A stretch of 53,328 bases of DNA from the NCBI GenBank assembly GCA_947479475.1, contig CANJZW010000026.1, forward strand, positions 1 to 53,328, in the 5' to 3' direction. This stretch comes from Chthoniobacteraceae bacterium (GTDB taxonomy: Bacteria; Verrucomicrobiota; Verrucomicrobiia; Chthoniobacterales; Chthoniobacteraceae). Of the stretch, positions 934-52,100 are shown one piece after another; the stretch's first letter is position 1, and each line of letters opens with the position of its first letter. A program made the translations under genes and the position numbers. Under the pieces are notes generated by a model that did not search any database, had not been told where the DNA came from, and saw nothing but the letters and a program-made list of their open reading frames with translations.

Positions 934-961
934 GGAGGGATGGCGGTGGGGCTCTGTCGGC

Positions 962-1609: not shown

Positions 1610-1826
1610 AAAAAGGGACTTGAGGGAGTGGTATCACCCGCCGCCCTGATTTCAAGCGCCGGAATTATTTTTGATAATTTGAGTGAGCATAAAATGTTTC
1701 GAACAAGGCAGAAGCAGGGCGAAATGCGGATCTGTGGATGCACAAAATTTGACGCCGTTGGAAAACTGGGTCTGGTGCGTCATCCACCTCGGCGCCCCTG
1801 ATCGGCCCTGGTGCTCACCACCCTAA
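1610..1826. promoter_or_regulatory. divergent intergenic region, presumed promoters
   Basis: This 217-nt gap separates the leftward HupE gene from the rightward glycosidase/PA14 gene and should carry both promoters. An AT-rich island at about 1660-1700 stands out from the GC-rich surroundings. I could not define a -35/-10 pair with proper spacing on either strand, so no exact promoter is called. Confidence 0.4.
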
Positions 1827-9025: not shown

Positions 9026-10972
<1,947 letters not shown>

Positions 10973-11090
10973 GCGGCAAGAGCTTCTCTAAAACTTTACC
11001 CTGCTGAGCGATGGGTTTCGCTTGTTCGAAATCCGCCCGCCGGCTGGTAAACCTGAAAACCAAACCAACAGAACAACCAGAAAGACCACC

Positions 11091-11384
11091 ATGAGTGTTA
11101 AAATTCGGCCCCTCGGTGATCGGGTTCTCGTAAAACCGATCGAGGAAACAGAAGTTAAAAAAGGCGGGATCATTATCCCAGACACCGCGAAGGAAAAACC
11201 CCAGGAAGCTGAAGTCATTGCCATCGGCACAGGCAAACACGACGAACACGGCAAGAAGATCGAGTTCACCGTGAAAAAAGGCGACAAGGTTATTATCTCC
11301 AAGTACGGCGGCACGGAAGTGAAGCTCAACGGCGAATCCTACCTCATCCTCCGCGAAGACGACATTCTCGGAATTCTCGGCTAA
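11091..11384 (+). CDS. groES: co-chaperonin GroES
   Basis: This is a 97-residue GroES beginning [20 protein letters not shown]. It carries the mobile loop around residues 16-32 ([13 protein letters not shown]) and the conserved [19 protein letters not shown] end. The frame is open further upstream, but ATG 11091 gives the standard length and aligns with the family N terminus. GroES caps the GroEL ring during ATP-driven folding. It lies 48 nt before groEL, clearly one operon, and 118 nt after dnaK. Confidence 0.97.
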
Positions 11385-11420
11385 TTGCTAGAGACAAACC
11401 TTTTCAATCTAAACCACTAA

Positions 11421-13064
<1,644 letters not shown>

Positions 13065-13087
13065 GTCGCCAGATAGGTTTAAAAAAA

Positions 13088-13126
13088 AGCGCCGGGTCTC
13101 TGAAAGGAGTCCGGCGCTCTTTTTTT
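13088..13126 (+). terminator. rho-independent terminator after groEL
   Basis: AGCGCCGG (13088-13095) pairs with CCGGCGCT (13111-13118) around a 15-nt loop that can pair further. A T run follows at 13120-13126 and an A run precedes the stem, so it could also act leftward on xer transcription. Confidence 0.9.
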
Positions 13127-13146
13127 GCCTCCCCGGCCGGTTGGCA

Positions 13147-13182
13147 CGTGGAACGTGAAACGTGAAACGTGAAACGTGAACG
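13147..13182. repeat. heptanucleotide tandem repeat (CGTGAAA)n
   Basis: About five units of CGTGAAA, the first being the variant CGTGGAA, run between the groEL terminator and the 3' end of the xer gene. It is a simple tandem repeat, too short and too regular for CRISPR. Confidence 0.85.
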
Positions 13183-13205
13183 CCCTGCGGGCGCGTGTCT
13201 GCGGC

Positions 13206-14108
13206 TCAGGCGCGGGGGTGGGCCTCGTCGTAGGCGGTGCGCAGGCGTTCGATGCTGACGTGTGTGTAGATTTGGGTGGTTGAAAGACTGGCGTGGCCCA
13301 AAAGAGCCTGGACGCTGCGGAGGTCCGCTCCCGCATCCAGGAGATGGGTCGCGAAGGAATGCCGAAGTTTGTGCGGGCTCACCTCCAACGGGATGGTCGT
13401 GTGCCGCAGATAGCGTTTTAAAAGAGACCAGACCGCCGTGGCGCTCAAACGTTTCCGAGCCTTGTTTAAAAAAAGAGGGCCGGCGTCCACCTTCGCCGCC
13501 TGTCTGTATTGCTGGATCGCAACGAGTGCGGGGGCACCCACGGGAACAACGCGTTCCTTGCGGCCCTTTCCGAGCACACGCACGGATTCGGAATACGGGT
13601 CGATATCTGCGGCATTGAGGCTGGTAAGTTCCGCCAAACGCAGGCCGCTTGAATAAAAAAGCTCCAGGATCGCGGCATCCCGCTGCGGCATCCACACTGG
13701 GGCCTGCTTTTCTTTTGGAATCCGCATCGGCGCGCCTAGCAGTTCGTCGATCTGTGCCGCGGTGAGCACAAAGGGAAGCTTCCGGCCAAGTTTCGGCAGC
13801 TGGACTTGTTTGAGCGGGTTATCTTTGAGTGCGAATCGCTCGGAAAGAAAACGGTAGAAGGTGCGGAGCGCTGCAAAATGAAGGCGCACCGTGGGTTTCG
13901 CAAACCCCTCGGCGGCAAGCTTCATCAGGTAACGCCGGAAATCGCCGGGTTTGAGATCGGTCCAGCCGGGAAGATCCTCTCTGGAGGCGCGGAATTTGGT
14001 GAGGGCGTGCCGATAGTTGAGGAGGGTGCGAGGCGACACCCCTCGCTCGACTTCTAAGCAACGGAAAAACTCGGTGGAGTAACGGTCTGGACGGGCTCGG
14101 ATTTTCAC
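13206..14108 (-). CDS. xerC: tyrosine recombinase XerC/XerD
   Basis: This is a 300-residue Xer recombinase. The N-terminal SAM-like DNA-binding domain (about 10-95) contains SPRTLLNYRHAL. The catalytic domain has the full residue set: R157 (SGLRLAE), K181 (GKGRKER), H246 and R249 (SPHKLRHSFATHLL), H272 (LLGHASL) and nucleophile Y281 (TQIYTHV). Length and motifs fit the housekeeping recombinases that resolve chromosome dimers at dif, rather than a phage integrase. XerC and XerD cannot be told apart here, so the symbol is provisional. The start codon is GTG at 14108. It lies alone on its strand between groEL and the PpiD-like gene. Confidence 0.88.
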   Translation of the reverse strand: MKIRARPDRYSTEFFRCLEVERGVSPRTLLNYRHALTKFRASREDLPGWTDLKPGDFRRYLMKLAAEGFAKPTVRLHFAALRTFYRFLSERFALKDNPLKQVQLPKLGRKLPFVLTAAQIDELLGAPMRIPKEKQAPVWMPQRDAAILELFYSSGLRLAELTSLNAADIDPYSESVRVLGKGRKERVVPVGAPALVAIQQYRQAAKVDAGPLFLNKARKRLSATAVWSLLKRYLRHTTIPLEVSPHKLRHSFATHLLDAGADLRSVQALLGHASLSTTQIYTHVSIERLRTAYDEAHPRA

Positions 14109-14250
14109 AAAGGGTGCGCTGGAGGTAAAAATGTGGATTTCGGCGGCTCAGCTTCGGAGAAACAAGTTGCGGGGACTTCCCCTGAGCTTCTACCTTAACA
14201 CGCTTACATCGGCGCTGACGCCACCCTTTTTCCCCAACCCAGTTCCAGCC

Positions 14251-15750
14251 ATGGTTAATATTTTCCGCCGCTTTCAGCAACCGCTGCTGATCATCCTCAC
14301 GGTTTTCGTCATCATCGCTTTCGTCGTCTTGTACGGAGGCCCGGGCACGCGCCTGGACAAGTTGGGATCGGACCGGGTTGCAACCATCTACGACCGGGGA
14401 GTCCAGCCCGCCGAGTACAGCAGCATCGGCCGCCAGTTCGAAATTTGCCGGATGCTTGGGATGTTCGACCTCGTCATTCCATTAGCGCAAAACGCCCGTT
14501 CCATGGCGGACGTGACAGACAACTACATCTGGAACACTTTTGTGCTGCGCCACGAGGCTCTGAAAATGGGGATTCAACCCACTGAACTGCAGGTCACGGA
14601 GGCCATCCAGCGGATGCCAGCCTTTCAAACCGCCGGCCAATACGATCATTCGCGCTATGCGCAGGCCCTTCAGACCGTGTTTGCACCGCGCGGGATGAAC
14701 TCCTCCCATCTCGAAGAACTTGTGCGTGATTCCATTCGCATGCAGGCGATTCGGGACATGCTTTCGGCAGGCTACGGGCCCTCGCCGGACGAGCTGGAGA
14801 AGGCTTATTCCAAACAGTTTCAAAAGGTGGAGGCGGCCGTCGTTCGCATCCCGAAGGAAGAGGTCGCCAAGCAGGTGAAGGTTTCAGACGAGGACCTCAA
14901 GGGCGCTTATGAATCTCGCAAAGACAATCTCAAGACCCCCGAAAAGAGGAAGGTCCAGTTCGCGGCGTTCGTTCTTCCAAAGAAAGAAAAAGACGGTCCG
15001 GCCTTGAATGCGTCTGACATGCAGAAGGTCGCGGACAAGGCCGATGATTTCGCTTCGGCACTTCTGGCCGAGGGAGCCAAGTTCGAGGAGGTCGCAAAGC
15101 GCCTTGGAGTGGAAGTGAAAACGCTTCCCGCCTTTGGTTTGGGAGAGCGCCTCGCCGAGCTTGGCAGCAACCCGCGGAACACCGCCGCCGCCTTCCAGCT
15201 CACGCCTGAAAAACCGTTTTCGGACACTCTGCAGACCCAGGAAGGTTACGTGGTGTTGAACCTTCTCGAAGTCCAGCCCTCCAAGCCGCTGACAATGGCT
15301 GAAGCCAAGGAGCAGTTGCTGGAGAGCTTGAAGCAGGACAAAGTCAGGGAAACCCTCTCCTTGAAAGCCGCGGAGGTGCGCAAGCAGCTCGAAGAAGGCC
15401 TTAAGGCGGGAAAACCCTTCGCGCAGGCAGCCGTGGCCACCGGATTCAAGGCCGAGGTGCTGGAACCTTTTTCACGTTCCGACAGCAAACTGAAGGGCGA
15501 CGATGCCACTCTGATTCAAAACAGCGCGACAGAACTCAAGCCAGGTCAGATCAGTGCGCCGCTTGATGGTCCTGCAGGGCCTGTCCTCGTCTATGTGACG
15601 AAGCGCCAACCCGTGGACCCCGCAGACCTCGAAAAGCAAAAGGAGACACTTCTTCCCATGCTCGAAACTCAGCGCGTCGACGGCCTGCTTTCCGAATGGA
15701 TCGACAGGCAGCGCACCGCAGCCGGCTTGCAGATGAACCAGAGTCGCTAG
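14251..15750 (+). CDS. PpiD/SurA-like periplasmic folding chaperone
   Basis: This 499-residue protein is held in the inner membrane by one N-terminal helix (about residues 10-31, QQPLLIILTVFVIIAF). The periplasmic part has a SurA/PpiD-type N-terminal helical region (about 45-200), then a parvulin-like stretch (about 225-350) with the LGLGERLAELG and QTQEGYVVLNLLEVQPSKP segments typical of PpiC folds. The parvulin core looks divergent, so isomerase activity is uncertain and the role may be chaperone only. ATG 14251 puts the membrane helix at the usual place; longer upstream frames add a non-membrane extension. It heads a rightward cluster with a TPR protein 33 nt downstream, consistent with outer-membrane or secreted protein biogenesis. 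Confidence 0.82.
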   Translation: MVNIFRRFQQPLLIILTVFVIIAFVVLYGGPGTRLDKLGSDRVATIYDRGVQPAEYSSIGRQFEICRMLGMFDLVIPLAQNARSMADVTDNYIWNTFVLRHEALKMGIQPTELQVTEAIQRMPAFQTAGQYDHSRYAQALQTVFAPRGMNSSHLEELVRDSIRMQAIRDMLSAGYGPSPDELEKAYSKQFQKVEAAVVRIPKEEVAKQVKVSDEDLKGAYESRKDNLKTPEKRKVQFAAFVLPKKEKDGPALNASDMQKVADKADDFASALLAEGAKFEEVAKRLGVEVKTLPAFGLGERLAELGSNPRNTAAAFQLTPEKPFSDTLQTQEGYVVLNLLEVQPSKPLTMAEAKEQLLESLKQDKVRETLSLKAAEVRKQLEEGLKAGKPFAQAAVATGFKAEVLEPFSRSDSKLKGDDATLIQNSATELKPGQISAPLDGPAGPVLVYVTKRQPVDPADLEKQKETLLPMLETQRVDGLLSEWIDRQRTAAGLQMNQSR

Positions 15751-31138: not shown

Positions 31139-34100
31139 GTGAAATTCCCCGACGGTCGGAATTTTTCTTCCCGAGTGACGCGTTTGACCCCCAAGCGCCG
31201 CCGGCGTCTGGGTGAGGCGTCCCGCCTTTCGCGTTTTCTGGCCGGGGTCAGGGAGTCCGAGGTGGCCACGGCGTGGCGGGAGCAGGGACCGCAGCAGGTG
31301 TTCCGCATTTCCCCTTGGCTCACGCGGTTTGTGAGTTTTCTCTCGCTGCTTTCGTTTTTTGCGGCGGAGTTCCCCGTGCGCGCGGCTACGTGGACCGGGA
31401 CCGACGACCTGCTTTGGACAAACCCCGCCAACTGGGTGTCATCGGCGGCACCCAGCGCGACGAACGGGGGGACCTTTAGCCTAGCGACAGGCACCACGGC
31501 GTACCTGAACTCTGGCACCACGGCTCTTGGGTTGAATTTCGTCGGCGCCGGGACGGTGACGCTACTCGGTGGCACCAGCGGGACCGCAGGCACCGGGACG
31601 CTGACCCTGGGCGCGTCTGGGATTTCCATGACGGCCGGGGCCGGAGCCGTTGTCCTTGGGGATGCCACTCCTTCCCCGACGCGCTTGTTGAACCTCGTTC
31701 TCGCGGCGAACCAAACCTTCGCGAACAACTCCTCCAGCTCCCTCACGATCGCCAACACCATTTCCGGCGCCTTCAACCTGACCTTGGATGGCTCCGGAAC
31801 GGGGCTGAGCACGATCATGGGCACTATCGCCACCGGCGCCGGGACGATTGCCAAAAGCGGACAGGGCACCTGGCTGCTGGCCGGGTCCAACACCTACACC
31901 GGCGTCACAACCATTGGACAGGGCGTCCTGCGTATCTCCAATGCCAGCGCCCTCGGAGGCACGGCTGCCGCAACAACGGTTTCAGCCACGGGGGCGGCGC
32001 TGCAACTTGCCGGTGGAACCGCCACGCTTTCGATCGCCGAACCCCTCACGCTCAACGGGACGGGGATTAATTCGGCCGGCGCCCTGCAAGCCCTCTCCGG
32101 AGTGGATACGGTCACGGGAACCATCACGCTCGCTAGCGCAACGATGATCGGGGCGGATGCCGGGGCGACGCTGAATATTTCGGGTTCCTTGGCGGGGTCC
32201 CAGGCGCTCACCCTGAACGCAGCGGGGATTATCAATCTTAATGGAACCCTTTACGGAACAGCCCCGAGCGCCATCACAAAGATGGGCGGAGGACAGTTCA
32301 ATATGCTTTCATCCAGCGGTTCCTATACAGGAAACCTCACCCTGAATGCCGGTAATACGGTCTTCTCTGGTTCAGGTTTGGTGGGTGGTCCAAGCGCGAC
32401 CCTTACCGTCCAGCCCGGCGCGGCGTTGAGTTTGGACAATACCGCCTTCAATCAGATCAACCGTTTGTCCACCAGGGCGCTTACCCTGTCCGGCGTTTTG
32501 TCTCTGACGGGTTCGGCCAACGCCACCTCCTCTGAATCCCTGGGCGCGTTGAGCCTGACTTCTGGAAACAGCGTCATCACCCTCTCCACCTCCGGCACGG
32601 GGCAGGACAATCTCACCGTCGCCTCCGTGGCCGCTCCCGCCACGGGGGCCTCCCTTCTGTTGCGCGGCACTAATCTCGGCTCCGGCACGCTCACTGCAGG
32701 AACAGCGACTTTCATCAGCACGGCGGCCGTCACATTCCTGGGCGCGGGGACGGGCGCCACCGGCACCGGCACCAAGGGCATCCTGCCGTGGGCCATTATT
32801 GACAACACGGCCACGGGATTCGGTTCCTCCTTTGCCACAGTCAACAGTGCGGCTGGTTTTTCTGGAACGGCGGGAGCAGGGTTCCGCCCGCTTGCCGCCT
32901 CGGAATACACCACGCTTCTGTCTTCCGGAAGTAACGTGGTGCTGTCCGCAGGAACGGTCGTCGTGTCGGCGACCACGATCAACTCCCTGAATCTTGCCGC
33001 CGCCGGCTCCGTGACGATGGCTCCCATGCAAACGCTGACCGTCGCCAGCGGCGGGGTGCTCCTCCAGACGGGCAACGCAGGGATCAGCGGTGGCGTTTTG
33101 ACCTCGGGCACAAGCTCCCTTTGGTTATTCACCCCGACCAGCACCACCTCCATCCAGACCATCACCAGCGTGATCGCGGGAGCGTTTAGCGGGGGCCTCA
33201 CCAAGGCGGGCGCGGGCACCGTCGAACTGGGCGGCTCCATCACTCCGGCGTACTCAGGATTCTCCGCCAACTCCTTCACCGGAACCGTCACCGTCAATGA
33301 AGGCACCCTGCGGATGGCCTCGGGCAACGCGCTTGGCATCACGACAACGATTCCCAACCTAGTCCTCAACGCCGGAGGGGTCAACGGATCCGGCGGCGCG
33401 GTGGACCTCAATGGAAACGTGCTTTTGGTCGGCGCTCTCAGCAGCCAGGGTGCTACAAGCGGCGCCGGGGTCGGCGGCGGCTCCATTTTCTCGAGCACGG
33501 GTGGTGGGAATTTCGTGAGCTCCACCGCTACGAGTTCTGCCTTTGCCGGCGCCATCTCAGGGGCCTCTTTGAACTTTGCCAAGTCCGGCGCCGGTGTGCT
33601 CACCTTGCTTGCCCCCGCCAATTATGGAGGTGCCACCTTCATCAATGGAGGCAGTGTCATCCTCAAGGACGCGGGCGTTCTGCTTGGAACGGGGTCTATC
33701 ACCCTGAATTTCGCCTCCCTGATGCTGGACAACACGGGCCTCAACGATAGCGCAGACCGCGTTTCCAATACGGCGCCGCTGAGTTTGAACGGCGGCAATT
33801 TGATTGTGACGGGGCGCGCTCAAATGGCGTCCACCGAAACCCTGGGAGCCGTGTCCCTCGCCTCCGGTCTTTCGACCCTCACCGTCACGCCGGGCGGCAC
33901 CGGCGTGAACTCCCTCGATCTGACTCTTTCCAGTCTGAGCCAGGCCACTGGCGCCGCGCTGAATGTCCTCGTGGGATCCGGCACTCTGGCTTTCGGCGGA
34001 AACAACCCCCGTATCCAAATCACTTCCGCACCCACGCTGGTTAACAATATCCTACCCTGGGCCACCGTGGGAGGCGCGGATTTCGCCAGTTACATCCCTT

Positions 34101-37100
34101 ATACCAACAACGCGGGGACCATTTCCGGCGGGCTCGGAGCGTTGAGCAGCACGGCGGCGGGTTTTGCGGGTTACACCCAGACGGTGGCTTCCGGCACCGG
34201 GCTACTTTCCTCCGGCACCAGCAATGCCAAGGTCACAGGGTGGACAGGCACGCAGATTCTGCCGGCGGGAACCCTTGCGTTAAACTCCTTAAACTTAGTC
34301 TCTACAGCGGCAGGCAGCCTCACCTTCGCCAGCAACACCGACACTCTCAACCTTGCCTCAGGAGGCCTCCTGCGCAGCGGCAACTTTGCCTCCCAGATCG
34401 GTGCCTCCGCAGACAACGGCTGGCTCACGGCGGGCGGCACGGCGGGCTCCGTCCCCCTTTACATCTACAACAACCAGAGCACGCTTGCCATCAACTCCCG
34501 GATTATCGACAACCCCGCCGGCGGCTCTCTTCAACTGGTGCTTTCCGGCGCCGGTTCCAGTTATAACCTGGGGAGCCCGTCCAATAGTTACACTGGAGGC
34601 ACCGTGCTCAATAACGTCACGCTCGCCCTCAACAACACCGGCGGTCTCGCCGTGGTGCCGGTGGGCGGCCTCACGCTCAATGGCTCCACCGTCACCATGA
34701 CCAACAGCGCCGGGCAGATTGCGGCGGGCAATACGGTCACCCTCAACGGGACGGCCACGCTCACGCTGTTTGGTGGGAACACTCTTGCGGGGATCGCCTT
34801 CAATAGTAATGGCGGCGGCAGCGCACCGACCCTTAACACGGGCAGTATTCTCCTTGTCTCTTCCATCACGGCGGATTCCTCCAACCTCGCTTTCCCAAGC
34901 ATGATCTCGGCCGCCAGCGTGATCGACTTCGGCACCTCCAACGGGGTGTTCAATGTCACGCCCATTCAAATCGCGGGGCAAACCGTGGCTCCTTTAGTGG
35001 CCACACTCAACGTTGCCGGGGGCGTGCGCGGAACCAACGGCCTGACTTTGAATGGCGGCGGCGTCCTCCAGTTAAGCTTGGCGAACGCCTACTCAGGAAC
35101 GACCAACGTGAACGCCGGAAGCACCCTGCAGTTTGGTGCGGCTAACGCCTCATCACCGGTTTCCGCATTAGTCCTCAACGCCGGCTCCTCCCGCCTCAAC
35201 TTAAACGGGTTTAGTGGCGTCATCGCCAGCCTCGCCGGCTCGGGGATTGTCACCAACTCCTCTGCCACCGCGGCTTCGCTTACCTTTGGCACCGATAATA
35301 CGAACACCACCTTTTCCGGAACGTTTGCCCGCTTTAATGAGGCAACGGGTTATGTGAGCAGCTTGAACCTCGTAAAGCTGGGAGCGGGAGCCTTCACCTT
35401 CACCGGCACGAGTTCCGCCGGGGCCTTCACCCTCAACGCGGGCAGCTTCCTCCTCTCGGCCGCTGGCTCCATGGGGGGAACGGGCGCCGTCACCGTCCAG
35501 CCCGGGGCATTGTTGAGCCTGGACAACAGTGCCGTGAATGTAGGCAACCGGCTCGCCAGCCGCACACTCACTTTGGCGGGCCAGTTGACGATGACTGGCT
35601 CCGCAAACGCGGTCTCCGCAGAGTCCCTCGGGATCTTGACGTTGAACCCCGGAAACAGCGTCATCAGCCTGTCCACCTCCGGCACCGGCCAGACCAATCT
35701 CACCGTGGCTTCCTTGGCCGCACCCGCCACAGGCGCCTCCCTTTTGGTGCGCGGGACCAATCTGGGCGCCGGCACGCTCACCGCCGGAACAGCCACCTTT
35801 ATCAGCACGGCGGCCGTCACTTTCCTGGGCGCGGGGAACGGCGCGACCGGAACCTTAAACAAGGGCATCCTGCCGTGGGCCATCGTTGATGCATCGGCGA
35901 CGGGCGTCGGCACCTCCTTTGCAACGGTAGACAGTGTTGCCGGTTTCTCGGGAACGCTTGGCGCTGGTTTCCGACCGCTTGCCTCCTCGGAATACACCAC
36001 CTTGCTTTCTGCCGGAAGCAACGCCGTTCTCTCCCTTGGCACATCCGCCCTAGCCGCCGTGACCCTCAATTCCCTCAACCTGGCTTCAGGCGGCTCCGTC
36101 ACCATAGCGCCGATGCAGACGCTGACGATCTCCAGCGGCGGGGTGCTGCTGCAACAGGGAAACGCCGGAATCCTGGGAGGCGTCCTAATTTCGGGCACAA
36201 GCTCCCTCTGGCTCTTCGCTCCGACAAGCTCCTCTTCAAGCCAGACCATCACCAGTGCGATCGCGGGCGCCCTCAGCGGCGGTCTCACCAAAGCAGGTGC
36301 CGGCACCATCGAACTCGGCTCAACCTCGCAGGCCTACGCCGGATTTTCCGCCAACTCCTTCACCGGAACAGTCACCGTCAATGAAGGCACCTTGCGGATG
36401 GCCTCGGGCAACGCGCTTGGGATCACGACAACCATGCCAAATCTGGTCCTCAACGCGGGAGGCGTCAACGGAACCGGTGGCGCGGTGGACCTCAATGGAA
36501 ACGTACTCCTTATCGGCGCTCTCAGCAGCCAGGGAGCGGCCACCGGCGCCGGGGTCGGCGGCGGCTCCGTTTTCTCCAGCACGGGCGGCGGCAACCTCTT
36601 CTCCTCCACAGCAACCGCCACCTCCTTTTCAGGGGTCATCTCCGGGGCGTCCCTCAACTTCAGCAAATCTTCCACAGCCGTATTGTCCCTGCTCGGAGCC
36701 AACACTTTTGGAGGAAAAACGCTGGTCAACGGCGGCGGGGTGACCCTCAAAGACGCCGGCTCCCTCTCAGGCACAAACGCCCTCGCCATCCAGTTTGCAA
36801 CCCTCACCCTCGACAACACCGGCCTCAACGACAGCTCCGACCGCATTACAGACGCCGCCTCCCTCACCCTGCGCGGCGCCACCCTCACCTACCTCGGCCG
36901 CGCTCAAACCGCTTCCTCCGAAACACTCGGCGCCCTGAACCTCGCAAGCGGCCTGTCCACCGTGACCGTCACACCCGGCGGCACCCTTTTCAACTCCGTC
37001 GACCTCACCTTCGCGAGCCTCAATCAGACGGCCGGCGCGGCACTGAACGTGACCGTGGGTGCGGGGACTCTCGGCTTCGGCGGTAACAATCCCCGCATCA

Positions 37101-40100
37101 AAATCACCTCAACGCCTGTGTTGACCAACAACATCCTCCCCTGGGCCACCACGGCAGGCGTGGAGTTCGCCAGCTACATTCCCTATACAAACGTCGGGGG
37201 GACCATCTCCGGCGGACTCGGGGCGTTGAGCAGCACGGCGGCAGGTTTTGCAGGGTACACCCAAACGGTGGCTTCCGGCGCCAGTCTGCTTTCCTCTGGC
37301 ACCAGCAATGCCAAGGTCAACGCCTGGACAGGCACGCAGATTCTGCCGGCGGGAACCCTTGCGTTAAACTCCTTGAACCTAGTCTCTACAGCGGCAGGCA
37401 GCCTCACCTTCGCCAGTAACACCGACACAATTAATCTTGGCGCGGGCGGTCTTTTGCGCAGCGGCAACTTTGCCTCCCAGATCGGAGCCTCTGCCGACAA
37501 CGGGCGGCTCACTTCGGGTGGAACCGGCGCCTCCGTGCCCCTCTACATTTACAACAACCAGAGCACCCTCTTGCTCAACTCCCGGATCATCGACAACCCC
37601 AATGGCGGCGCCCTTCAACTGGTGCTTTCCGGGGCTTCGACCTTCAACCTCGGAAGCACGGCCAACAGTTATTCAGGCGGGACGGTCCTCAATGGAACAA
37701 CGCTCGCGCTCAACAACACCGGCGGGCTGGCTGTCGTTCCCACGGGCGGGCTGACGCTCAATAGCGCGACGGCCACGATGACACTGACCTCGGGCCAAAT
37801 CGCCGCCGGAAATGTGGTCACCCTCAACGGCAATTCCACGGTCACTTTGTTTCGTGACAACACCCTGGCGGGGCTCGTCTTCAACAACAACGGCGGCGCC
37901 GCCCCGGTTCTAAACTCCGGCGGCGTTCTCACCTTGACCGGCTCCGTGACGGCAGATTCCTCCAACGTCTACCAATCCAGTACCGTCTCCGCGACCAGCG
38001 TGGTCGACTTCGGCACGCTTACCGGGGTCTTTAATGTCAGCCCTATTCTTGCCAATGGGCAGACCATCGCCCCCCTCGTGGCCACCCTGAACATGGCCGG
38101 CGGAATCCGTGGGACCGGCGGCCTCAATGTCTCCGGCGGCGGAGTCCTCCAGCTCAGTCTGACGGACGCGTACACCGGAACGACAAACGTTGCCGATGGC
38201 ACCAAACTGCAAATCGGCGTCGCCAACGGAGGCTCCCCAGTTTCCCAGGTTAATCTGGCTGGGCCCTCTTCCGTGCTCAACCTGAACGCCTTTAGCACCA
38301 CCCTCGGGGGTATCGCCGGAGCGGGGGTCGTCACCAACAGCTCCACAACCTCCGCGACGCTCACCACCGGGTACGACAACACGGACGCCACCTTTTCCGG
38401 ACAGTTCGCCCGCTTCAACGAGGCGACCGGTTATATCAACAGCCTGAACGTCACCAAGGTGGGCACCGGAACACTCACCTTTACTGGCACCGGCACGACC
38501 ACGGGAAACCTGATCGTCAACCGCGGGGCCATGGTTTACTCGGGCTCCGCAAACACCGCGTTTCTTGGCAACACCGTGAACGTGGGAGGGGCTTTGACCC
38601 TGGACAACTCCGGCACCAACGTGAACAACCGCCTTGCCCAGGGCGCCGTGGCCGCGACAGGGGTGGGCGCCACTTTGACCCTTGGCGGCGGGGCCGTGAC
38701 CATCCTTGGCAACGCCCTCGCGCCCACAACTGAAACGCTGGGCAACCTACTGGTGGTGACGGGCACAATCACCACCGGCACCACCACGGTTACCGTCGCC
38801 AATACGACTGGTCTATACACCGGCATGGTGATCACCAGCGGCACGTTGTTCGCAGTCGGCACCACTATTTCCTCCATCAACGGCGGCACCCTGGTTCTGA
38901 GCAGTAGTGCGGTGGCCACGGCCAGTGGCACGGCGATTATAGCGGCGAGTGGTGGCGTTTTAACGCTGGCCGCTGGCGGAAGCACTCTGACCCTCGGTGC
39001 GAACAGTGCGCAAAGGCTCGTGTTCAACACCGGTTCGGTTGGGGCGATTACCGCGGGCGCCTCTTTGCTGTTGAGGGGCTCGAATCTGGGGGGTGGGGTC
39101 GGAGCGGGAATCGCCCAGTTGGTCGCCAACACGGCCGCCCCGGCTCTTGTGGGCGGCGGCGGACTCTCCGGTTCCGCCACCATGTCGGTCCGCCCGGATA
39201 TTCTGGCGGACAATTCCGCCACAGGAAACGGTCTTTCCTTCGCCACCTACATCGGCACCTCCGGCACCTCCTCGACGGGTGGCACCGGTTTCCGCCCCCT
39301 TACCGCCGCCGAATTGAGCTCCTACCTGGGACTGGGTGCCACGGCGAATGTCGCCCTGGGCTCCAATGGCGGTGGCTATTTGACGGCTGCCGCCACCATC
39401 AACTCTCTCGCTTTGAACGCGGGCGGCGGGGTGAATATCGCAGGTAACGTGCCGGATTCCTACGCACTCACGTTGGGCACGGGAGCCAACAACGCGGGCG
39501 GGATCGTCGCTTTTGCCGGCAATAACGGGATCACCGGCGGCCAGATCACCACGGGCAGCGGCGCCCTCTTCCTCTGGACCCCCGGAGCGGACTCGATCTT
39601 GAACTTGAACAGCGCCATCGTCAGCACTGGGGCCGTGGTGAAGGATGGGGCGGGCACGTTGAACATCAATGTGCGCCAGTTAAACGGCTCCGCTACCTAC
39701 CTCAATGGCGGTACGATCCGCCTCTCGGGCGGGGACAACCGGTTGTTCGTCAACGCCTCCGGAACCCCCTACGGCCTGTTCGTCAACAGCGGCATGCTAG
39801 ACCTCAATGGTAACAACCAAGTGGTCGCCGCGCTTTCCAGCTCCAATGCCACTCCCGGCTCGGGCGGGCTTATCACCAACCTCGCCACCGGTTCACCCGT
39901 GACGCTGACCTCCAATGGCGGCGGCACCTTCGCCGGTTCGATCGCCGGCAATCTGAACTTCACCCGCTCCAATACGAGTTCCGTCTTTGTCGCGGACAAC
40001 CCCTACACCGGTGTCACGACCCTGCGCGGCGGAGTCCTCACCCTCCAGCAGGCTGGTAAACTCTCCGGAACTTCCGCCATCAACAGTTATTTCGGCACTC

Positions 40101-43100
40101 TGACCCTCGACAATTCTGCGAGTGTGATCTCCGATATCCCGCAGCGCATCGGCGCCACCGTACCGCTCAGCTTCCTGGGTGGCGCCTTCAACTACACCGG
40201 CTTCCCGAGTGCAGCCTCGGCCATGGCGATCGGGGCGCTCTCCCTCCCTGGTGGAGGCTTCTCGATCAACGCGACCCGTGGGAACACCTTGGGCAATGCG
40301 GTGCTGAACGTAGATTCCCTAACCCGGACTGGCGCGGGCGCCTCCGTGAACTTCGCCGTGGGGAGCGGCGTTCTCGGACAGGCGACGCTGGGGAATTCCC
40401 AGATCTTTTTCAACACCATCGACGGAGTCGCCCCGCTCACCGTGGCGGCTGCCAACAACGGGATTTTGGGCGGCTGGGCCACGGTAAACGCAACGGATTT
40501 CGCGGGCTACCTCGCTTCCAACGGCACCCAGGGCGGTGTGGGTGCGCTCGGCGCCACCGGTTACGCCGCCTATTCGGCCTCCTTTCTCATCAACGGCGGC
40601 GCCACGGACAACATCACGGTGGCTGCCGGAACCACCGGGATCACCAGCCGCACCATCAACTCGCTCCGCGTGACCGCCGTTTCAGCCCTGACGCTCAATG
40701 CCGGCGCCACCCTGAACATCGCCTCGGGGGGCCTGCTTCTCAATGGTGCCGCAAGCGTCATCTCCGGCGGCAGCCTCACCGCGGGTACACTCAACACGGC
40801 CTCCACGCTGTATCCGTACCTGAACAACACGGGGACCATCTCCAGCAATATCGTCGACAATGGAACGGGCGCCTTGTCCCTCTCCAAGGGTGGCGGCAGC
40901 ACGCTGACCCTGAGCGGAACGAACACTTACTCCGGCACTACCTTTGTCAATGCGGGCAATCTGACCCTCAGCAACCTGGCCGCCAACGGCACGAGCCTCG
41001 TGGCGGTCCCGGGAACTCTCGTCATCAACAACGCGACCGTCCAGCTGACAGCTCCCGCCCAGATCAAAAATACCGCGCTCGTCACTTTGAACGGGGGCGC
41101 CACGCTGACCCTCTGGGGCAACAACACCCTGGGGAATCTTGGGATCAACCAGTCCGGAGCCACGGCCGCGGCGGCGGTGAACCTGACGTTTGCCACACCC
41201 GCCACCTCGACCACCGTGTTGGGCAGCAGCACCCTCACCGTGGGCACGGTGCTTGGCATCGCCGTGGGCCAGCCGGTGAGCGGCACCGGGATTCCCACCG
41301 GTGCGATTGTCACGGCGATTTCGGGGACCTCCTCGGTCATCATTTCAGCACCCGCCACCGCTGCGGGCGCCGTGGCGATTACCTTCGGCGGTTCGCTGGC
41401 CTTCACGGGCAACAACCTCACCGCTCAGAACGATGTCTTCGGCCTAGACCCCGTCATCAACGCCGGCGGTTTTATCAACGCCTCGGGTGGCACCCTCACC
41501 GTGAATGTCACGGGCCTGGCGCCTCGCTCCCTGCTCCTGTCTTCCCCAGTGATCAACGGTTCCCTCACCAAAACCGGCGCCGGCGGGCTGGTCTTGAATG
41601 CCACCGGGATTGGGTTCAGCGGCTTGAACGTGGTCGATGGTCTTCTGCAGCTACCTACCACAGCCGGCATCCTGCCCGTGGGCAGCACCTTCACTCTGGG
41701 CGATACGGCCACCCTTGACATCACCAACAACGTGGGAGTCTTTGTCAGTTCACTCGCCGGCAACGGACGGGTGACCGCCAGCGCCAACGCGCAGCCGTTC
41801 GTTTTCGGCACGGACAACACGAGCACGACCTTCGGCGGCCAGTTTGCCGCCTATTCGCGCAATGTTCTCAGTTTTTTGGCGGTGACTAAAGTGGGCTCCG
41901 GGACTACGACACTGACCGGGGTGAGTGATACGATCGGCAACTATCTCGCCAACCAGGGCAACACCGTCCTCTCCGGATCGGGCTCCGTGGCGTTTGGAAC
42001 GACCACCATTTACAACGGCTCCCTCACCCTCGACAACAGCGGCACAAACCTCATCGGCCGCCTTGGCGGGGCTGGGAAAAACCTCACGCTGGCCGGCGCG
42101 CAGTTCAATTTGATCGGCAACGCATCCGGGCTCACCAGTGAAAGCGTGAGCACGCTCAACATCGCCGCGGTTCCAGGCGCCTCCACCATCACCCTGACAG
42201 CGCAGCCCGGCGCCCCGACTTGGCTGAGTGCTTCCACCTTCACTGGCCAGGCGGCTTACGACACCGGCCTGATCCGCGGCACCAACCTCGGCTCCACTCC
42301 CGGCAATGGCGTTGCCAGCATTTGGGCCACCACTCCCTCCCTCGCAGGCGGCGGCGGCCTGCCGGGCACCCCAAACATCAGCGTGCGTTATGATGTTCTC
42401 GCCGACAGCAGCGCCACCGGTCAGGGCACGCGCTTTGCCACGTATTTCGCCGGCGTCGGCTTCCGCGCTCTTGCGGATTCTGAAATGCTCTCCTCCCTGA
42501 CCAATGCCCCGCTATCAACCAACCTTTTCCTCACTAATGCCGCAGCCCTGCCCACGGCTTCGCTCGCCACCATCACTCTGGGTTCCGGCGGCGGTATCGG
42601 GGGCGTGACGCCCTCAAGCACAATCACAGGGGCCTATGGTATCTTGGCACTGCCGGGGAATGCCGGGGTCACAAGCGGCCTCTTCACCACGGCGGGGGGG
42701 ACGACGCTGGACATCCACACGGTGGGCGACCTGCAGTTTGACGCCGCCATTTACAACTCCACGGGCGGTGTGGTGAAGGCGGGCAACGGAGCCCTGACCT
42801 TTGGCCGAGCCCAGTACGGGACCGGCGGGTGGGTCGTCAATCAGGGGACGCTCTACCTTGCTTCCAGCGTGGACAACACCATCCCGGTCATTCCCTCCAC
42901 CACCGTCGCCACGGTGTCCGCGCTGCGCATCACCAACGGGGTGCTCAACCTCAATGGCCGCAACCAAACCGTGGGCAGCATTGACTCCGCCAGCGCTTAC
43001 GCCGGCGGCACCATCACCAACACAGGCTCTCTCGCCACCTTGATCACCGCCGCTTCCGGCGCCACAACTTTCGGCGGCGTCCTGGCTGGCAGCCTCAACT

Positions 43101-46100
43101 TCACCAAGACCGGCAACAATACCACCACGCTGGTCAACCCCCAAACCTACACCGGCTTCACCACGGTGCGCGACGGAACCGTACGTCTCCTCCAAAACGG
43201 CGCCCTCCAGACAACCAGCGGCATCGGCGCCTATTTCGGCACCCTCCAACTGGACAACAGCGGCGTCTATTCCCTCAACGACCGGATTAACGACACCACC
43301 CCAATCACGCTCCGCGGAGGCAATCTCACCCTCACGGGCGGCTACGCGCTCGCGAACGCCGAAAGCCTTGGCGCCGTTACTCTCCAGTCCGGCTACAGCG
43401 TCCTCACCGCCACGCCCGGGACCAACGGCTCCGCCGTGTTGACCCTCTCCAATCTTGTGCGAAACACCGGCGCTGTGGCCAACCTGGTGGGCAACAACGC
43501 CCTTGGCCAAACCGGCCTCAACACCACGCAGATTTTCCTCAACCAGCTCAACGGAACGACCCCCACCCTCACCAACAACCTGTTGGGTGGCTGGGCCATC
43601 GTAAACGGCGCTGACTTCGCCACCTGGAACGCCACCCAGGGCGTAGGGGCGCTGGGTGCCGGCACCTTCGCCGCTTACGACGTCCTCGCTTCCAGCGGCA
43701 CGTTCTCCAGCACCGCCGCCCAAAATGTCAAACTTCTGGCCGCAGGCACTCTCACCTCCGGTGGCCAGACCCTGAACAGTCTCAATATCGCCGGCGCCTT
43801 TGGCCTCACCTTCAGCGCCGGTGCCGATACCCTCACCCTCACGAGCGGCGGTCTGCTCAAGACAGGAAACAGCGCCAGCATCGGAACCGCGGGCACTGCC
43901 GGTATCCTCACCTCCAGCGCCTCCGAGCTCTTCCTGACCAACGCCACCGGCGGCCAGACCCTCTCCGTGTATTCCAAAATCACGGGAGGCACCCTCGTCC
44001 TGAGCGGCCCCGGCTCTTTCCTGCTCGCCCCCACCGTTAGCAATACCTACACCGGCCCCACTTACATCAACGGTTCCCCCGTCACGACAGGCACCGCGGC
44101 GCTCACCGTCATCCCCGGCGACCTCTTCATCAACAACGCCGCCGTCACGATGGGCACCGCCGCCGGCCAGATCGCCTCCGCCTCCAACGTCACCCTCAAC
44201 GGTGGCGGGATCCTGACGCTCTACGGCAACAACACCCTCAACAGTGTCACATTCAACGGGCTGGGCGGCCAGGCCACCCCGACGCTCAGCACTGGCGTGC
44301 AGACGATCACCCCCGGCACCGTCACCAACGGCAGCCTGGTCATCGTCCTCTCCGGCTCCTACAACATCACCGCCGGCCAGCTGGTGAGCGGCACCGGTGT
44401 CATCCCCGGAACGCGCGTTAACGACGTCTCTTCCGACGGTCGCACCGTCACGCTGACCAACCCGATGACCACCTCGACGGCGGCGGCGTTGACCTTCACC
44501 GGCTCCCTGACCCTTGGTGGCACCGCCGCCCTCACCGCCGTCAACGACACCCCCAGCACCACCCCGACTCTCTCCGGCGCTTTGGACATCGGCGCTTCCG
44601 GCCGCAACGTGGACGTCTCCGGGGCTTCCCCCGTGGGGCTGGCCCTCACCGCGGCCCTCCTTGGCAGCGGTTCCCTGACCAAAACGGGAGCGGGACTGCT
44701 TTCTCTCACAGGCGCGAGCACCTTTGCCGGCGGGGTGAACCTCCAGCAGGGCTCGATTGTTTTCGGTGCGACTACCCTATACCTCGGGCTGCTCACCAAC
44801 GGACCGCTGGGGACAGGCACTTTGAATATTGGCGCTGACTCGGTGCGCCTGGTGGGCAGCGGCCAGACCCTCTACAACGCCATCAGCGTCACCAACCCGT
44901 CCAATACGCTCAACATCGGCGGGGTCACCAGCGCCAACAACCTGACCCTCAGCGGCGCGCTCGGTCTGGTGAGCGGCGGCACGATCAGCGTCGACAGTCC
45001 GGCGGTCACGGCAACGCTCGCCTCCACGCTGACCGGTTCCTTCGCGTTCACAAAGACAGGCAACGGCATCCTCGCCCTTGGCAACCCGGCCAGCACCAGC
45101 ACCGGTACAATATCCGTTTCCAGCGGCATTCTGGCCATCGGCGCGACAAACGGCAGCTCTCGCTTTTCCCGCGTGGATCTGGGCGCCAACGGCATGTTTG
45201 ATCTTAATGGCACGGCTGACACTTTGGGCTCTATTACCGGAACGGGCCTCTTCGCCAATCGCGGAGGTAACATTACCGCCCGCGTCGGCTTTGATAATAC
45301 GGACTTCACCTTCTCCGGCCGTTTCGCTGGCAGCACGCAACTCGGCGGCAACCTGAACATCGACAAAATCGGGACCGGCACCATGACGATCGATTCCGCC
45401 GCCGGCACCGGCAGCTACAACCTGGGGAACCTGACGGTCTCCCAGGGCACGCTGAGCCTCTCCGGCGCCGCTGGAAGCACCACCTTCAGCTCTTACGTGG
45501 TCCCGACCGGCGGTCTTCTCCTGCTCGACAACAGCGTGAACAATCTCAACAACCGCCTGGGCGGTCCCAACCGCAATATCACGTTGCAGGGCGGGGAGCT
45601 GAAAATCACGGGGAACGCCTCGACTCCGACGGTCGAAAGCCTGTTCTCTCCGAACCTATCCGCTGGCAGCACCCTGAGCCGCGCCAACGGCATGAGCACA
45701 CTGACACTGGTGCCCGATGCCAACCAATCGCTCAGCCTCAATGTCGGCACGATCTCGAACCTTGGCGGTGCCGACGGGCTTCTGGTGCGCGGCACCAACC
45801 TGGGCGCCACTCCCGGCCCGGGTGTGGCCACGTTCAACGCAGTTGCCGCAAACTTCCTGGCTGCCGCACAGACCGGCGCCGGAACTCCCACCATGTATAT
45901 GCGGCCCGACATCATCGCAGACACCTCCGCCACAGGCACCGGCACGGGTTTTGCCACCTGGCTGCCCACCACCGGCGTGCGGCCGTTGACCGCGGCCGAG
46001 CTTGCGCCAGGCCTCTTCCGGATGGTCAATACAGGCGTGAATCTGGGCATCACCTCTGCGCAGGTGCTTGGAACCACCGCCGCCTATAGCTTGACCCTCA

Positions 46101-49100
46101 ACACCGGAGGCGCGCTCACGGCCATCTCCAACGCGGTGACGTTCACCGACACCTCGGGCGGCATCCTCACCCTCGCCAACGGCGCCTCCAGCATCAACGG
46201 CGGCCTCTACCAGAGTGCCGGCAACCAGATGATCTTCCAGCAGCTCGACACCACCAACGCGCTCAACTTCAACGCCTACATCCTCACCGTCAACCAGGTT
46301 ATCAAAAACGGCGCAGGCACGCTCAACCTTCTGAAGCCGCAGTTCACGCAGAACAACGCCACCGGGGTCTGGAATGTAAACCAGGGTGTATTGGCCTTGG
46401 CCAGCGGGGTGGACAACACCCTCCCTGTCGTCGCCACGGCCACGGCGCCTTACATGCCGACCCTCGTAATGAACGGCGGCACTCTCGATCTCAGGGGTAA
46501 CAACCAGACGATTGGGACCATTTCCAGCCAGAACCCGCTGCCGGGCTTGGGCGGCAATATCCTCAACTCCTCGGGCACCCTCGCCGTCTTCACCACAGCC
46601 GCGGCTGGCACTAGCGTTTATGCCGGTGCGATTTCAGGCAGCCTGGGCTTCACCCGCTCGGGCAACAACACGACCACTCTCACCAACACCAACCCCTACA
46701 CGGGCGCGACGATCATCCGCGGCGGTGTCCTTGAACTGAGGGACAGGGGCGCCCTTTCCAACACTTCCGCCCTCACCGACTATTTCGGAACTCTGCAGCT
46801 CAATGATCAGGGTCTCTACTCGGGCATCAACCGCGTGCCCACCGCTCTCAGTCTGACGCTGGCAGGGGCGACGCTGAACTACCTGGGCAACCAGACCTCC
46901 GCCAACGTCGGCACACTCAACACCGCCGCCGGCCAGACCACCATTGGCGTCACCACCATGACGGGTAATGTCGCGGCCAGCACCCTGACCCTCGCGAACC
47001 TCGCGCGCTCCGGCGCGGGAAGCGCTGTGAACTTTACGGGCACGAACCTCGGTCAAAACGGGTTCGCCACCACGCAGATCTTCCTGAACCAAGTCAACGG
47101 AAGCGCCCCCGCCCTTACCAACGGCATCCTAGGCGGTTGGGCGACGGTAAACGGGACGGACTTCGCAGGCTACCTCGCCTCCAACGGGACGCAGGGCGGC
47201 GTCGGCGCCCTCAACACGCTGGGGTTCCCGTATTACTCGCCCAACCTAATGAGTGGCACTACCGCCACCGCGGACAATATCAACATCAACGCCACCGTCA
47301 CGATGGCGGCCGGCGCGAAAACCATCAACTCCCTGAGGATCGCCGGAGCCTATAACCTGACTCTCGGCACTGCGGACATTTTGACCCTTTCCACCGGCGG
47401 TCTGCTCGCAGCCGGCGCTTCCACAATTTCGGGTGGCACGATTACTTCGGGCAATGCCGAGCTGTTTGCCTACACCAACGCGGCAGTGACCATTTCCAGC
47501 GTGCTCAGTGGTGCCGGTGTTTCTTTGGTCAAGGGCGGTGCCAGCACACTCACACTCACCGGCGCAAACACCTTCACCGGCACCCTCTACGCCAACCAGG
47601 GCACAACGACGCTGAACACTGCCAGCGCCAATGGCAGTACGATTGTGGCAGCCGGAGGCGACGTCGTCGTCAACAACGCCACGCTCGCCCTCTCCACCAA
47701 TCTCCAGCTCAAGAGCACCGCCAATGTCTCCCTCAACGGCGCCGCCACCCTCACCCTGACCGGTTCCACCGCCTTCAACTCGCTCACCTTTAACAACACC
47801 GGCGGGGCCGTCATCCCCACCGTCAGCGGCGGCTCCCTCCTGCTCACCGGCGCCCTCACCGCAAACAACGACAACTTCAGCTTCACCCCGAGTATCACTA
47901 GCGCCGTCGACCTGAGTTCCGGCGCCCGCACCATCAACGTCAACGGACTTTCCCCCAACGGGCTGGGGATCACCGGCATCATCAGTGGCGGCGCCGGGTC
48001 CATTATTAAGACAGGCAACTCCGCCCTCACCCTGAGTGGTGTCAACACGTTCACCGGGGGCGTCACCCTCAGCCAGGGCAACCTGATTATCGGAACCGCA
48101 AGCGCCCTTGGCACAGGCACGCTGACCCTCGCAAACAACACCCGCATCCTGGCCGGCGGCGCCGCCCAAACCTTCTCCAACGCGATCTCCGCCATCAGCG
48201 AACTCAATTTCGCCCCGAGCCAGTTTTCACTGACAGCCAGCGGGTCCGTGACCTTCTCCAGCGGCACCACGGCGGTGATTTCCGTGGACAGCCCGACCCT
48301 CGCGGGCAATGGGGTGAACATCATCACGTTGAGCGGGACCCTGGGCGGCCTGAGCTCCCTCACCAAAAACGGCCTCGGCCGCCTCGACCTCACCAACGCC
48401 AACACCGCCCTCACAGGCAGCATCAACGTCAATGACGGCTTGCTCACCGTGGGTTCCCAGTTCGCCCTTGGGGGAAATGGCAGTTCCGCTCCCTACGTAG
48501 CTGGCCCAGCCGTGACACTCAATGGCGGCGGCTACAACGTGAATGTCGCTAACACGTTTTTCCAAAATCCCGTCACCCTCGCCGGCAATGCCGTCCTAAG
48601 CGCAACGGCAGCGAACACCGCGATCGGCGCGGTCACCGTGAACAACACAGCAACGGCCCTGGGGGTGCAGGGCGGCAATGCCGTTTCCATCTTCGGAGAC
48701 CTCACGCTCAGCGGCACCTCGGCCACCACGATTTATACGACCAACAACCTGCTAGTGTTCGGTTCGCTCCTTGGCACCGCGCCCATCACCAAGGCTGGCT
48801 CCGCCAACCTGCTCCTCTACGGAAACAGCAGCTACTCCGGCGCCATCTCGGTGGAGCAGGGGATCCTCGCCTCTGCAGGGACCGGCGCCACACCGTTTGG
48901 CAGCGGCGCCCTGACCATACAGCCTGCAGGCATCCTCCGCCTCACGGCCGCGTCCAACGTTGTCGGGGCGCTCACCGTTAACTCCGACAATGTCGGGCTT
49001 GGCGTCCTTGGCCTTGCCTATAACGGCGCGATTCCCGCGGCGACCTTCAATTCCACCAACGCCTCCGCCGACGGGATCATCGGGATTGATGCCATCGGCT

Positions 49101-52100
49101 TTGGGACGGCGCTTAGCTTCACCGGTACCAACCGGTACTTGGGCTCCAGCCAGGGCGGCACCTACACGGCTCCGACGCTCGGTGTTGGCGCGGGCAACAC
49201 CTACCGTCTAGGCGGCGGTGGCGGCATCCTGACGCTCAATGCCGCTGTGCTTTCAGGCGCCGGCAACAGCGCGATTTTCGGCGCACTTAACGGTGTGCAA
49301 GGGGCCAACCTGCTCAACAACACCGGCACGGTCGTGCTTAATACCGCCAATACGTTTACGGGTGGCTCCACCTTCAATGGCGGCGTGAGCCTCCAGCTCG
49401 GTGACAACGCCGCACTGGGCACCGGCGCCCTCAACTTCAATGGCGGCACCATCCAGCCCGACACCGCCGGGCTCGGCACGCTCCTCCCCCTCCGCACCCT
49501 ACAGAACGCCATCACCTTCGCCGGCACTCTGGCCACGGCGATGGTCGCCCCAGGCGGCGCACTCATCACCATCAACGGCGCCTACGCGGCGGACGCCTTC
49601 TTCGGCCAGGGCGGCAACACCGACCTCGTGTTGAACGGCCCGGTTGCGCTGGGTGCCGGGATCGAGCGCACCCTCAGTGTGCCCTCCACGACCCGCGTCG
49701 TGACCCTCGGCGGGCAGGTCACCGGCACGGGTGCAGCCGGCCTCATCGCGACTGGCGGCGGCTATTTGAAACTCACCAACGCGAGCAATAGCTACTCCGG
49801 CATCACGGCGGTGAACGCCAGCACCACCCTTGTCGTCGGGGCAATCGGCGCCCTGCCTGCCGCCTCCACGATTGTGGGGGCCGGCGGGAACCTTGGCTTC
49901 TGGGACATCTCCACCACCTTCAACAACAACGTGAATCTGATCGGCAACCTGACCCTGGACATCGGCCTCGGGCAGACCGTGACCCAAGGCTCGGGGGTCA
50001 TTTCCAATACCGGTTCTTTGATCAAGGCCGGCCTTGGAACCTTGGTGCTCAGCGGCAGCAACACCTTCGGCCAAACGGGCCAGGCGGCGCTCAACACCCA
50101 GATCACCATCAATGCGGGAGCCTTGAGCATTGCTTCCGACGCCAATCTTGGACCGGTCGCCCCCCTCGTTGCCATAGGCTCTATCATTCAACCCGGCGGC
50201 ATCACCTTCGGGGGAGGTCAGCTTTTTGTGACGGACAATATTACCTCCCTCCGTGGCATTAATATGAGCGGCGCGGGAAGCATTGTGGTTGCTCCCAACA
50301 AAACCCTGACCTTGAACGCCACTGGGGCATCTGGAACAGGCTTGCTCACGATCGCCGGAGGGACCGTGGTCATCAATCAGGCTTTAGTAAACAACCTCGC
50401 CGTGAGCAACGGCGCGACGTTGCTCAGCAATGCCACAAGCGTCGCCGCTCTCGGAGCGACCGCCTTGACGATCAACGGCGGCACAGTCCAACTCAATCCA
50501 TACGGCGCCGGCGCGACACTTACCGTTCCCACGCTCACCATCGCGGGAGGCGCCACCCTCCGCCTCGACGCACAGGGCGGCTCCGACACGCAGTTGATCG
50601 CCACTACGCTCGCCCGTTCCAGTCAGGGCGCCCTTTTACTTGTCCCGGGTTTTGGCGCCACCTTTGGCAACACCAACAATTCCGATGCCCGTTTGCTCGT
50701 TTCCGGCACTGGCACGATCTTCGGCGTTTCCGCCGGCACCGTGGGTTACGCGCAGCTCAACAACGTCAGCAGCGCCGGCACCGTCAATTCGGGCGCCGGC
50801 ATCCTGGCACCTTACGTTCTGATGCTCGCCTCTCAAACCAATGCGACCGCCAATTTTGTCGCTTACGATCCTACGGTCGGGTTCATACCCGCCACGCCTG
50901 CCGCGCCGCTCCTCAACAACTTCGCCGGCGCCACAAGCGCCTCCGTCTTCTCAGGCACTGCTTCCCTCGCAGCGCCCGCCGGCATCACGGATCTCTTCGC
51001 GCTTCGGACCACCTCCAGCATCACCGCCACCGACGCCACCAGCGTTCTGCGGTTCCGCAGCGTTTCCTCCACCGACATGGGCGGTCTCCTCCTCAACGGC
51101 GTCGGCGGGGCCGCCCCCGTCATCGACCCGGGTCTTGTGTTCGCTAACTCGAATTTCCCAGGCGCGGTGATCGCCGGAGAAGGCCTCGTCTATGTGAGCG
51201 GCGGCTACACCAGCGGCATTGCAACACTCGCCGGTTCGGTGGCTTCCAACAACTTCACGAAGATTGGCAATGGCGCGTTGCGTCTAAACGGCGCGAACGC
51301 CTTGGAGGGCAACTTCGCCATGCAGGCCGGTTTGCTCCAGCTCGGTTCTGCCGCCAGCGGACCGGTCGCGGGCACCTTGTCACTCAACGACACCGCGATC
51401 CTCGACCTCGCCGGGGCATCCGCCACCATCGGCAACCTTGGAGGCTCCCAGGGCCTCATCACCAACCTGAGCGCCGGAGCCGGTCTGCTCCGCGTGGTCG
51501 GCGGCGCCAGCACCACCTTCTCCGGCAACATCACCGATGGAGCCGGCACCACCAAGCTCGTTAAATTGGGTGGCGGCACCCTCCTCCTAAGCCCCCTCAC
51601 GGCCGGTAATTTCAACGCAGGCAACAATTCCTACACCGGCGGCACTGATATTTACTCTGGGATTCTCACCGTTCAAAACCCCCTCGGCCTCGGGGGCGCC
51701 AATGGAACCCTCCCGGGTGCTGTTTCCTTGTACGGGGGCCAGCTCAACCTGCAATCCAACGGGGCCGGTGTGGATGGCACCATTGTTTTCGGCAACCCCA
51801 CCACCAAAGGGCTCGCACTCCAGGTCCGTGGCAACGCCGCTATTTACGTCGACCGCGTTGCCGCCAACACGGGCAACGCCATCCAGGTGGATTCGCTTTC
51901 CCTCGCCAACGCCACCCTGACCATGACCGGCGCCAACAATTACCGCCTGCTCGTCGCCGGGACAACCACGCTGCAGGGCAATGCCGCCCTTCTCAACATC
52001 AACACGGCAGCGCCCTCCGCTGCGCTTGAACTGGCGGGTCTCATCACCGACAACGGAAGCGGCTTCGCACTCAACCGTTCCGGCGGCCAGGGGACGGGCA

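Follow-up and report, generated by a model that had tools for sequence, protein, structure and literature searches.

A giant PATR-type passenger gene of a Chthoniobacteraceae bacterium carries five tandem two-half blocks, with signs of exchange between copies

The closest described relatives of the gene studied here are the classical (type Va) autotransporters with PATR units (PF12951/TIGR02601), such as IcsA (5ke1), fusolisin (8axg) and Ssp. PATR is said to help passenger secretion (PMC9977779). Our gene lies in a stretch of 53,328 nucleotides (the window), which is the entire contig CANJZW010000026.1 of a Chthoniobacteraceae bacterium (GCA_947479475.1, 5.07 Mb in 214 contigs; contig C26 of genome G000 in our labels). 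It has in common with these autotransporters the PATR units, a predicted all-beta passenger, an export-signal-like N-terminus and, in two open reading frames (ORFs) of the same genome, PF03797 ends. It differs from them in its length of at least 7,396 amino acids, in having the PATR units scattered in blocks of two halves, and in an extra beta module. We consider it likely that the gene encodes a secreted all-beta passenger of great length and of the PATR-autotransporter kind, with a role at the cell surface and a stalk of tandem blocks of about 1,030–1,165 residues that has changed by copying and exchange.

Periscope Proteins (PMC9704523) share the idea of a surface stalk with a length that comes from the number of tandem units. 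There the units are domains of about 50–165 residues with high identity, whereas our blocks are far longer and their best pair is 73% identical, with the other nine of the ten pairs at 38–44%. Block number does differ between species and paralogues, with one genome per species compared. Autotransporters with long signal sequences (PMC2805444) also have a long N-terminal stretch ahead of the hydrophobic signal, which is a likeness of layout. Huge proteins are relatively frequent in some Planctomycetes–Verrucomicrobia–Chlamydiae (PVC) bacteria (PMC11573180). By title or abstract start we found no account of such a block in the literature, with subscription papers mostly outside the coverage.

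The gene is a single ORF that is still open at the contig end:

31139..53326, plus strand: giant gene of 7,396 codons for a PATR-type passenger; it lacks its 3' end, as the contig stops at 53328

The original prediction placed a five-fold super-repeat in this gene, between 32320 and 48420. In a self dot-plot of the protein (60-residue windows, BLOSUM62 sum above 90, one shuffled copy as control) there were 2,161 high-scoring windows against 0 in the shuffle. They formed long parallel diagonals and not scattered PATR similarity alone, with 1,070 windows at offsets 1000–1049 and more at 1100–1199, 2100–2249, 3150–3349 and 4300–4399. Local alignment gave all 10 block pairs scores of 958–3719, and shuffled sequences, 20 per pair, never scored above 412. 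The super-repeat was confirmed by both the dot-plot and the alignments, but its bounds had to be corrected to 32432 and about 48769. The blocks are contiguous and homologous end to end, spaced by 3,081–3,495 nt:

32432..35518, plus strand: block B1, 1,029 amino acids; type 1 half 32432–33724, type 2 half 33725–35518
35519..38599, plus strand: block B2, 1,027 amino acids; type 1 half 35519–36808, type 2 half 36809–38599
38600..42028, plus strand: block B3 (position 2), 1,143 amino acids; half boundary 40105/40106
42029..45523, plus strand: block B4 (position 3), 1,165 amino acids; half boundary 43249/43250
45524..48769, plus strand: block B5 (position 4), about 1,082 amino acids; half boundary about 46798/46799

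B1 and B2 share 73.1% identity in a nearly gapless alignment of 1,024 columns. The nine other pairs have 37.9–44.4% identity over 932–1,042 columns, with scores of 958–1584. B4 has an additional stretch that repeats the match to the block end (profile positions 844–1020). In the DNA, 300-base pieces of B1 match B2 at 68–88% and other block pairs share only short patches, which rules out that the array is one stretch assembled twice. Whole-protein self-BLAST gave no pairs and was replaced by tiles and diagonal sums; Tandem Repeats Finder, with its period limit of 500, is blind to a block repeat of about 1,000 residues.

The sequence marks that had been predicted for the blocks held in part. ILPWA-type anchors are present at all of the type 2 sites, as ILPWA (34049 and 37133) or as ILGGWA or LLGGWA (40463, 43580 and 47126). 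At the type 1 sites, ILPWA occurs in B1 and B2 (32780 and 35867), but B4 has RYD (42386) and B3 has RPD (39191), as does B5 at the aligned site. All four of the predicted closing junctions are there, as DNTxxTF at 35294, 38375, 41813 and 45293, and B5 is without a DNTxxTFSG junction. The NGxNQ site is literal in B3; in its place are NGRNQ in B4, RGNNQ in B5 and NGNVLL in B1 and B2.

Two more features follow the array. Because another LDN module starts at 52898, the count of five does not fix the number of modules in the whole gene (G003 is the genome of a related species):

48770..52897, plus strand: post-array passenger region that lacks a full block and runs parallel to the G003 gene (collinear, 64–76% in the tiles listed)
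52898..53326, plus strand: further LDN module starting at the contig end, with a weak block-profile match (24.1 bits, positions 404–524)

Each block is made of two homologous halves. When we aligned the type 1 halves (alignment A3, seven rows) with the type 2 halves (A4, five rows), hhalign reported a probability of 99.4% and an E of 7.9e-22 over 377 columns. AlphaFold2, given B2 and an alignment that held 12 further blocks, predicts an all-beta structure, with a predicted local distance difference test (pLDDT) score of 84.0 and a predicted template modeling (pTM) score of 0.85. Its strands are short and regular at about 155–430 and 660–1027, and longer at about 1–150 and 440–655. Since the longer-strand parts are the opening of each half, we read the block as a module and a solenoid, twice: a beta module of about 150 residues (type 1) or about 230 (type 2), then a predicted beta-solenoid stretch with PATR units. 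We also folded one module alone:

36812..37513, plus strand: opening beta module of the B2 type 2 half; the other type 2 halves start with copies of it, and the type 1 halves with a related module

The lone module reached a pLDDT of 78.6, with five models spanning 57.5–78.6. The type 2 module had no match in Pfam or NCBIfam, and a fold search of it against the PDB gave 61 matches at E ≤ 10, none at or below 0.001 (best 0.0092). Among PDB sequences, the block profile matched only IcsA and fusolisin, each with an E of 0.0014, at positions 857–932 and 850–994 near the block end. Against a viral library the block had 181 matches at E ≤ 10 and none at E ≤ 0.001.

PATR was the only family that we found in the giant protein (Pfam at E ≤ 1 in both parts; NCBIfam gave TIGR02601 alone), with 10 and 15 stretches of PF12951 and 10 and 14 of TIGR02601 in the two parts. 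No two-partner secretion (TPS, type Vb) domain was found at the N-terminus, PATR being the sole Pfam family at E ≤ 1. The share of cysteine among the residues is 0.0% after rounding, as is that of histidine. In what follows, C2, C7, C38, C60, C70, C72, C79, C83, C90, C117 and C137 denote contigs of the window genome and their ORFs, and L041 and L042 are block-bearing relatives in other records. The start of the protein has a segment that looks like an export signal:

31283..31393, plus strand: N-terminal export-signal-like segment (PQQxFR..P.LTR, hydrophobic stretch, A-x-A-like end), common to five other giant ORFs of the genome

The PQQxFR..LTR motif has 6 matches in the genome (E ≤ 0.1, including the one in the window), all of them within giant PATR-type ORFs, the C2 ORF among these. 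The C7 and C90 giants and that of C25 in genome G010 start without it. We take the hydrophobic stretch and A-x-A-like end to be a putative Sec export signal, judging from the sequence and its kin. Two ORFs with intact 3' ends, C2 (G000:C2:25306-86460, minus strand, loci L045–L048; 20,385 residues with stops at both ends) and C60 (5' side open), terminate in a PF03797 autotransporter barrel, with E of 3.9e-30 and 1.6e-23. The missing C-terminus of our gene would likewise be an outer-membrane autotransporter barrel. Judged by its PATR units, the B2 model, the motif at the N-terminus and the C2 and C60 barrels, the protein most probably forms a beta-solenoid stalk of great length at the surface. 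It may be a stalk or an adhesin with a length set by block number; adhesion is something we infer from the class alone.

The block is not confined to this gene. There are 25 block matches above 200 bits in seven giant ORFs of the window genome, of which the five in C26 match by construction:

Block matches above 200 bits per ORF: C26 5, C7 5, C83 4, C2 4, C70 4, C79 2, C117 1

The giant ORFs of C60, C38, C72, C90 and C137 have weak matches, below 50 bits. When we looked for the block period in 18 giant PATR-type ORFs with a dot-plot at > 110, the 1025–1049 bin dominated in the window ORF alone (990 of 1,519 windows). C83 is spread over 950–1149 and multiples, and the remaining giants have other periods or none. 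Internal duplications occur at other spacings, of 4,437–4,449 residues in C2 and 3,610–3,642 in C25 of G010.

Counting the window genome in each case, a block match at E ≤ 0.001 was present in nine of the 12 genomes of the genus. The stricter E ≤ 1e-40 left four of the 12, and across the family it gave 15 of 40 genomes, from 6 of 9 genera. In the phylum, at least 5 of 288 genomes have the whole block (at most two candidates scored per genome) and 23 of 288 genomes, from 19 of 152 genera and with the window genome among them, have the type 2 module at E ≤ 1e-12 (at most nine candidates per genome). The type 2 module is also found in open frames down to 611 residues. One open frame in a 2.3 Mb genome of the same class and another family (G141:C2, locus L076) is 17,232 residues long and matches both the block and the module. 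L041 (JAIYDQ010000486.1) is a 5-kb contig labelled Planctomycetaceae that encodes about one and a half blocks, which is either an inter-phylum transfer or a misbinned contig. By a hand sum of one ORF per contig, some 20 ORFs of 1,431–20,385 residues with strong PATR matches in the window genome, the window ORF included, come to about 115,000 residues together and take up roughly 7% of the genome.

Growth by duplication of the block had been proposed for the array. The end-to-end alignment and a block tree support this, but it is incomplete as an account, because three positions predate a paralogue and species split, only B1/B2 looks lineage-specific, and there are signs of exchange between copies and between half-blocks. 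The tree had 22 blocks, mostly near full length, chosen from the block map with others excluded, and 8 of its 19 inner branches are drawn open. B3, B4 and B5 each join one C83 and one G003 block, in the same order along the three genes, with support of 100/99, 100/100 and 100/99. Positions 2–4 are older than the split from the paralogue C83 and from the related species. At these positions the window is 75, 77 and 70% identical to G003 and 52, 50 and 47% to C83. B1 and B2 are closest relatives of each other (sisters at 100/100) and look like one lineage-specific doubling. Block copies would have been gained through unequal recombination between homologous blocks.

Residues 2401–7396 of the window protein are collinear with the G003 ORF, at 53–92% per tile listed, and residues 241–360, before the blocks, are 62% identical to it; the G003 ORF has about 6,400 further residues upstream. 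Nonsynonymous divergence (dN) at positions 2–4 is 0.17–0.22 against the G003 copies and synonymous divergence (dS) is 1.3–1.8, which points to purifying selection; for B1/B2 they are 0.20 and 0.89. A possible alternative, to which we give some room but not the preference, is neutral length drift, where block number is immaterial and selection keeps only a solenoid that can fold and be secreted. Block number and arrangement do vary widely among related genes, and the match is in just the four genomes of the genus at the stricter threshold, yet positions 2–4 and about 1,500 residues beyond them have stayed collinear with G003. A dN well below dS also speaks against drift, although neither point amounts to selection for block number.

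The identity of B1 and B2 at fourfold sites ranges from 0.20 to 0.93 in 30-site windows. This variance was reached by 0 of 2,000 permutations, and five other pairs, three of them orthologous, had P of 0.07–0.85. The patchiness suggests gene conversion tracts, so B1 and B2 may exchange short tracts. Outside of the high patches, their silent-site identity is near the inter-orthologue level, and both this and the patchiness would also fit an old pair kept alike by gene conversion, in a five-fold array from which G003 and C83 each lost a block. We think this unlikely: it requires losses in both comparison genes, and B1 and B2 align nearly without gaps, with halves 77 and 71% identical, for which one duplication and some conversion is simpler.

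Position 1 appears to have had one half swapped between species. Compared with B1/B2, the G003 block there has 40% identity over its type 1 half and 60–64% over its type 2 half, with the shift near the half boundary. In a tree of type 1 halves, the only one of the two half trees to resolve this, it groups with L041 and L042 (100/99). The 40% identity of the type 1 halves speaks against B1/B2 and this block being plain orthologues. A G003 upstream block (G3_m1) was tried as nearest kin of the window type 1 half and rejected, at 55–56% compared to 56% for C83 and 57–58% for C2. The simplest reading is a half-block swap, in which genes would have traded a half, with the break close to where the halves meet.

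Contigs C7 and C70 break off in two separate giant genes, and their ends share 83.5% identity along 2.4 kb, with the last 129 shared bases exact; they sit at profile position 413–414, near the half boundary. This hints at a recent event between the genes, either exchange or duplication. C7, C70 and G015:C8 (L080) all end at profile 410–414, just before the type 2 half, as if near-identical shared DNA there broke the assemblies. We tentatively suggest, while thinking it the less probable case, that the half-block is an exchangeable cassette and that giant surface genes are reshuffled within one genome by swaps and conversion, with breakpoints at half-block boundaries. If that is true, some 25 solenoid blocks, distributed among seven or more giant genes, make up a set that keeps changing within the lineage and gives it a modular route to renewing the cell surface.

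Several results weigh against a secreted PATR-autotransporter stalk that was built by copying and exchange. Foldseek of the B2 model against the PDB gave 69 matches, none at E ≤ 0.001, with the Hbp passenger best at 0.029; about half of the 50 listed matches are autotransporter or two-partner passengers, again none at that threshold. The C-terminus of the window gene is absent from the contig. The C-terminal tail of L042 is PEP-CTERM-like by eye, although no such NCBIfam model matched at E ≤ 0.01, so the window protein may have an anchor other than a barrel. In the block tree, position 1 is not its own clade, having seven other blocks among its four, and C83_b1 joins B1/B2 at only 94/91. The type 2 half tree lacks resolution: a branch set the expected group apart in 40% of 200 bootstrap trees. 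Dating is rough because silent sites are near saturation.

The weakest alternative, that there is only PATR-level or compositional similarity in a solenoid repetitive at any period, we regard as very improbable: G, T, A, S and N do make up 61% of the protein, and blocks align with its non-block parts slightly above shuffles (scores 206–334, 31–37% identity), but block pairs score 958–3719, the diagonals are long and parallel at one period, other PATR giants have other periods or none, and the tree recovers kinship by position.

The rest of the window has some features of note. Genes for dnaK, groEL and a SurA-like peptidyl-prolyl isomerase (PPIase) are adjacent in series at 9026–15750, about 15 kb upstream of the giant gene, and the G003 giant gene has, at about 1 kb from its start, a PPIase 64% identical to this one. 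These genes are perhaps tied to export of the giant protein. A 1,972-residue protein with PA14, GLEYA, Big_9 and cadherin-like domains, encoded at 1827–7745 on the plus strand, is likely another surface protein. Rfam had no match in the window. For the continuation of the giant gene, no 21-mer or longer from the window end recurs in the searched sequence of 12 contigs, and the sole other match to the end in the genome is 72% identical, inside C83. The nearest labelled records are metagenome-assembled genomes under Spartobacteria and Chthoniobacteraceae, plus Planctomycetaceae for one 5-kb contig. The host is probably a bacterium of fresh water, with lake or pond read from the isolate names of these records.

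The growth route of a single huge protein can seldom be traced, and here several steps are legible: a module, then a block of two halves, an array of old date, a single later doubling, and signs that copies were converted and half-blocks exchanged. The block is a defined unit for work on folding and secretion and a marker for strain comparison. As far as can be judged from sequence, comparison with related giant genes suggests that proteins of this kind owe their growth and change to blocks and half-blocks being copied and swapped.

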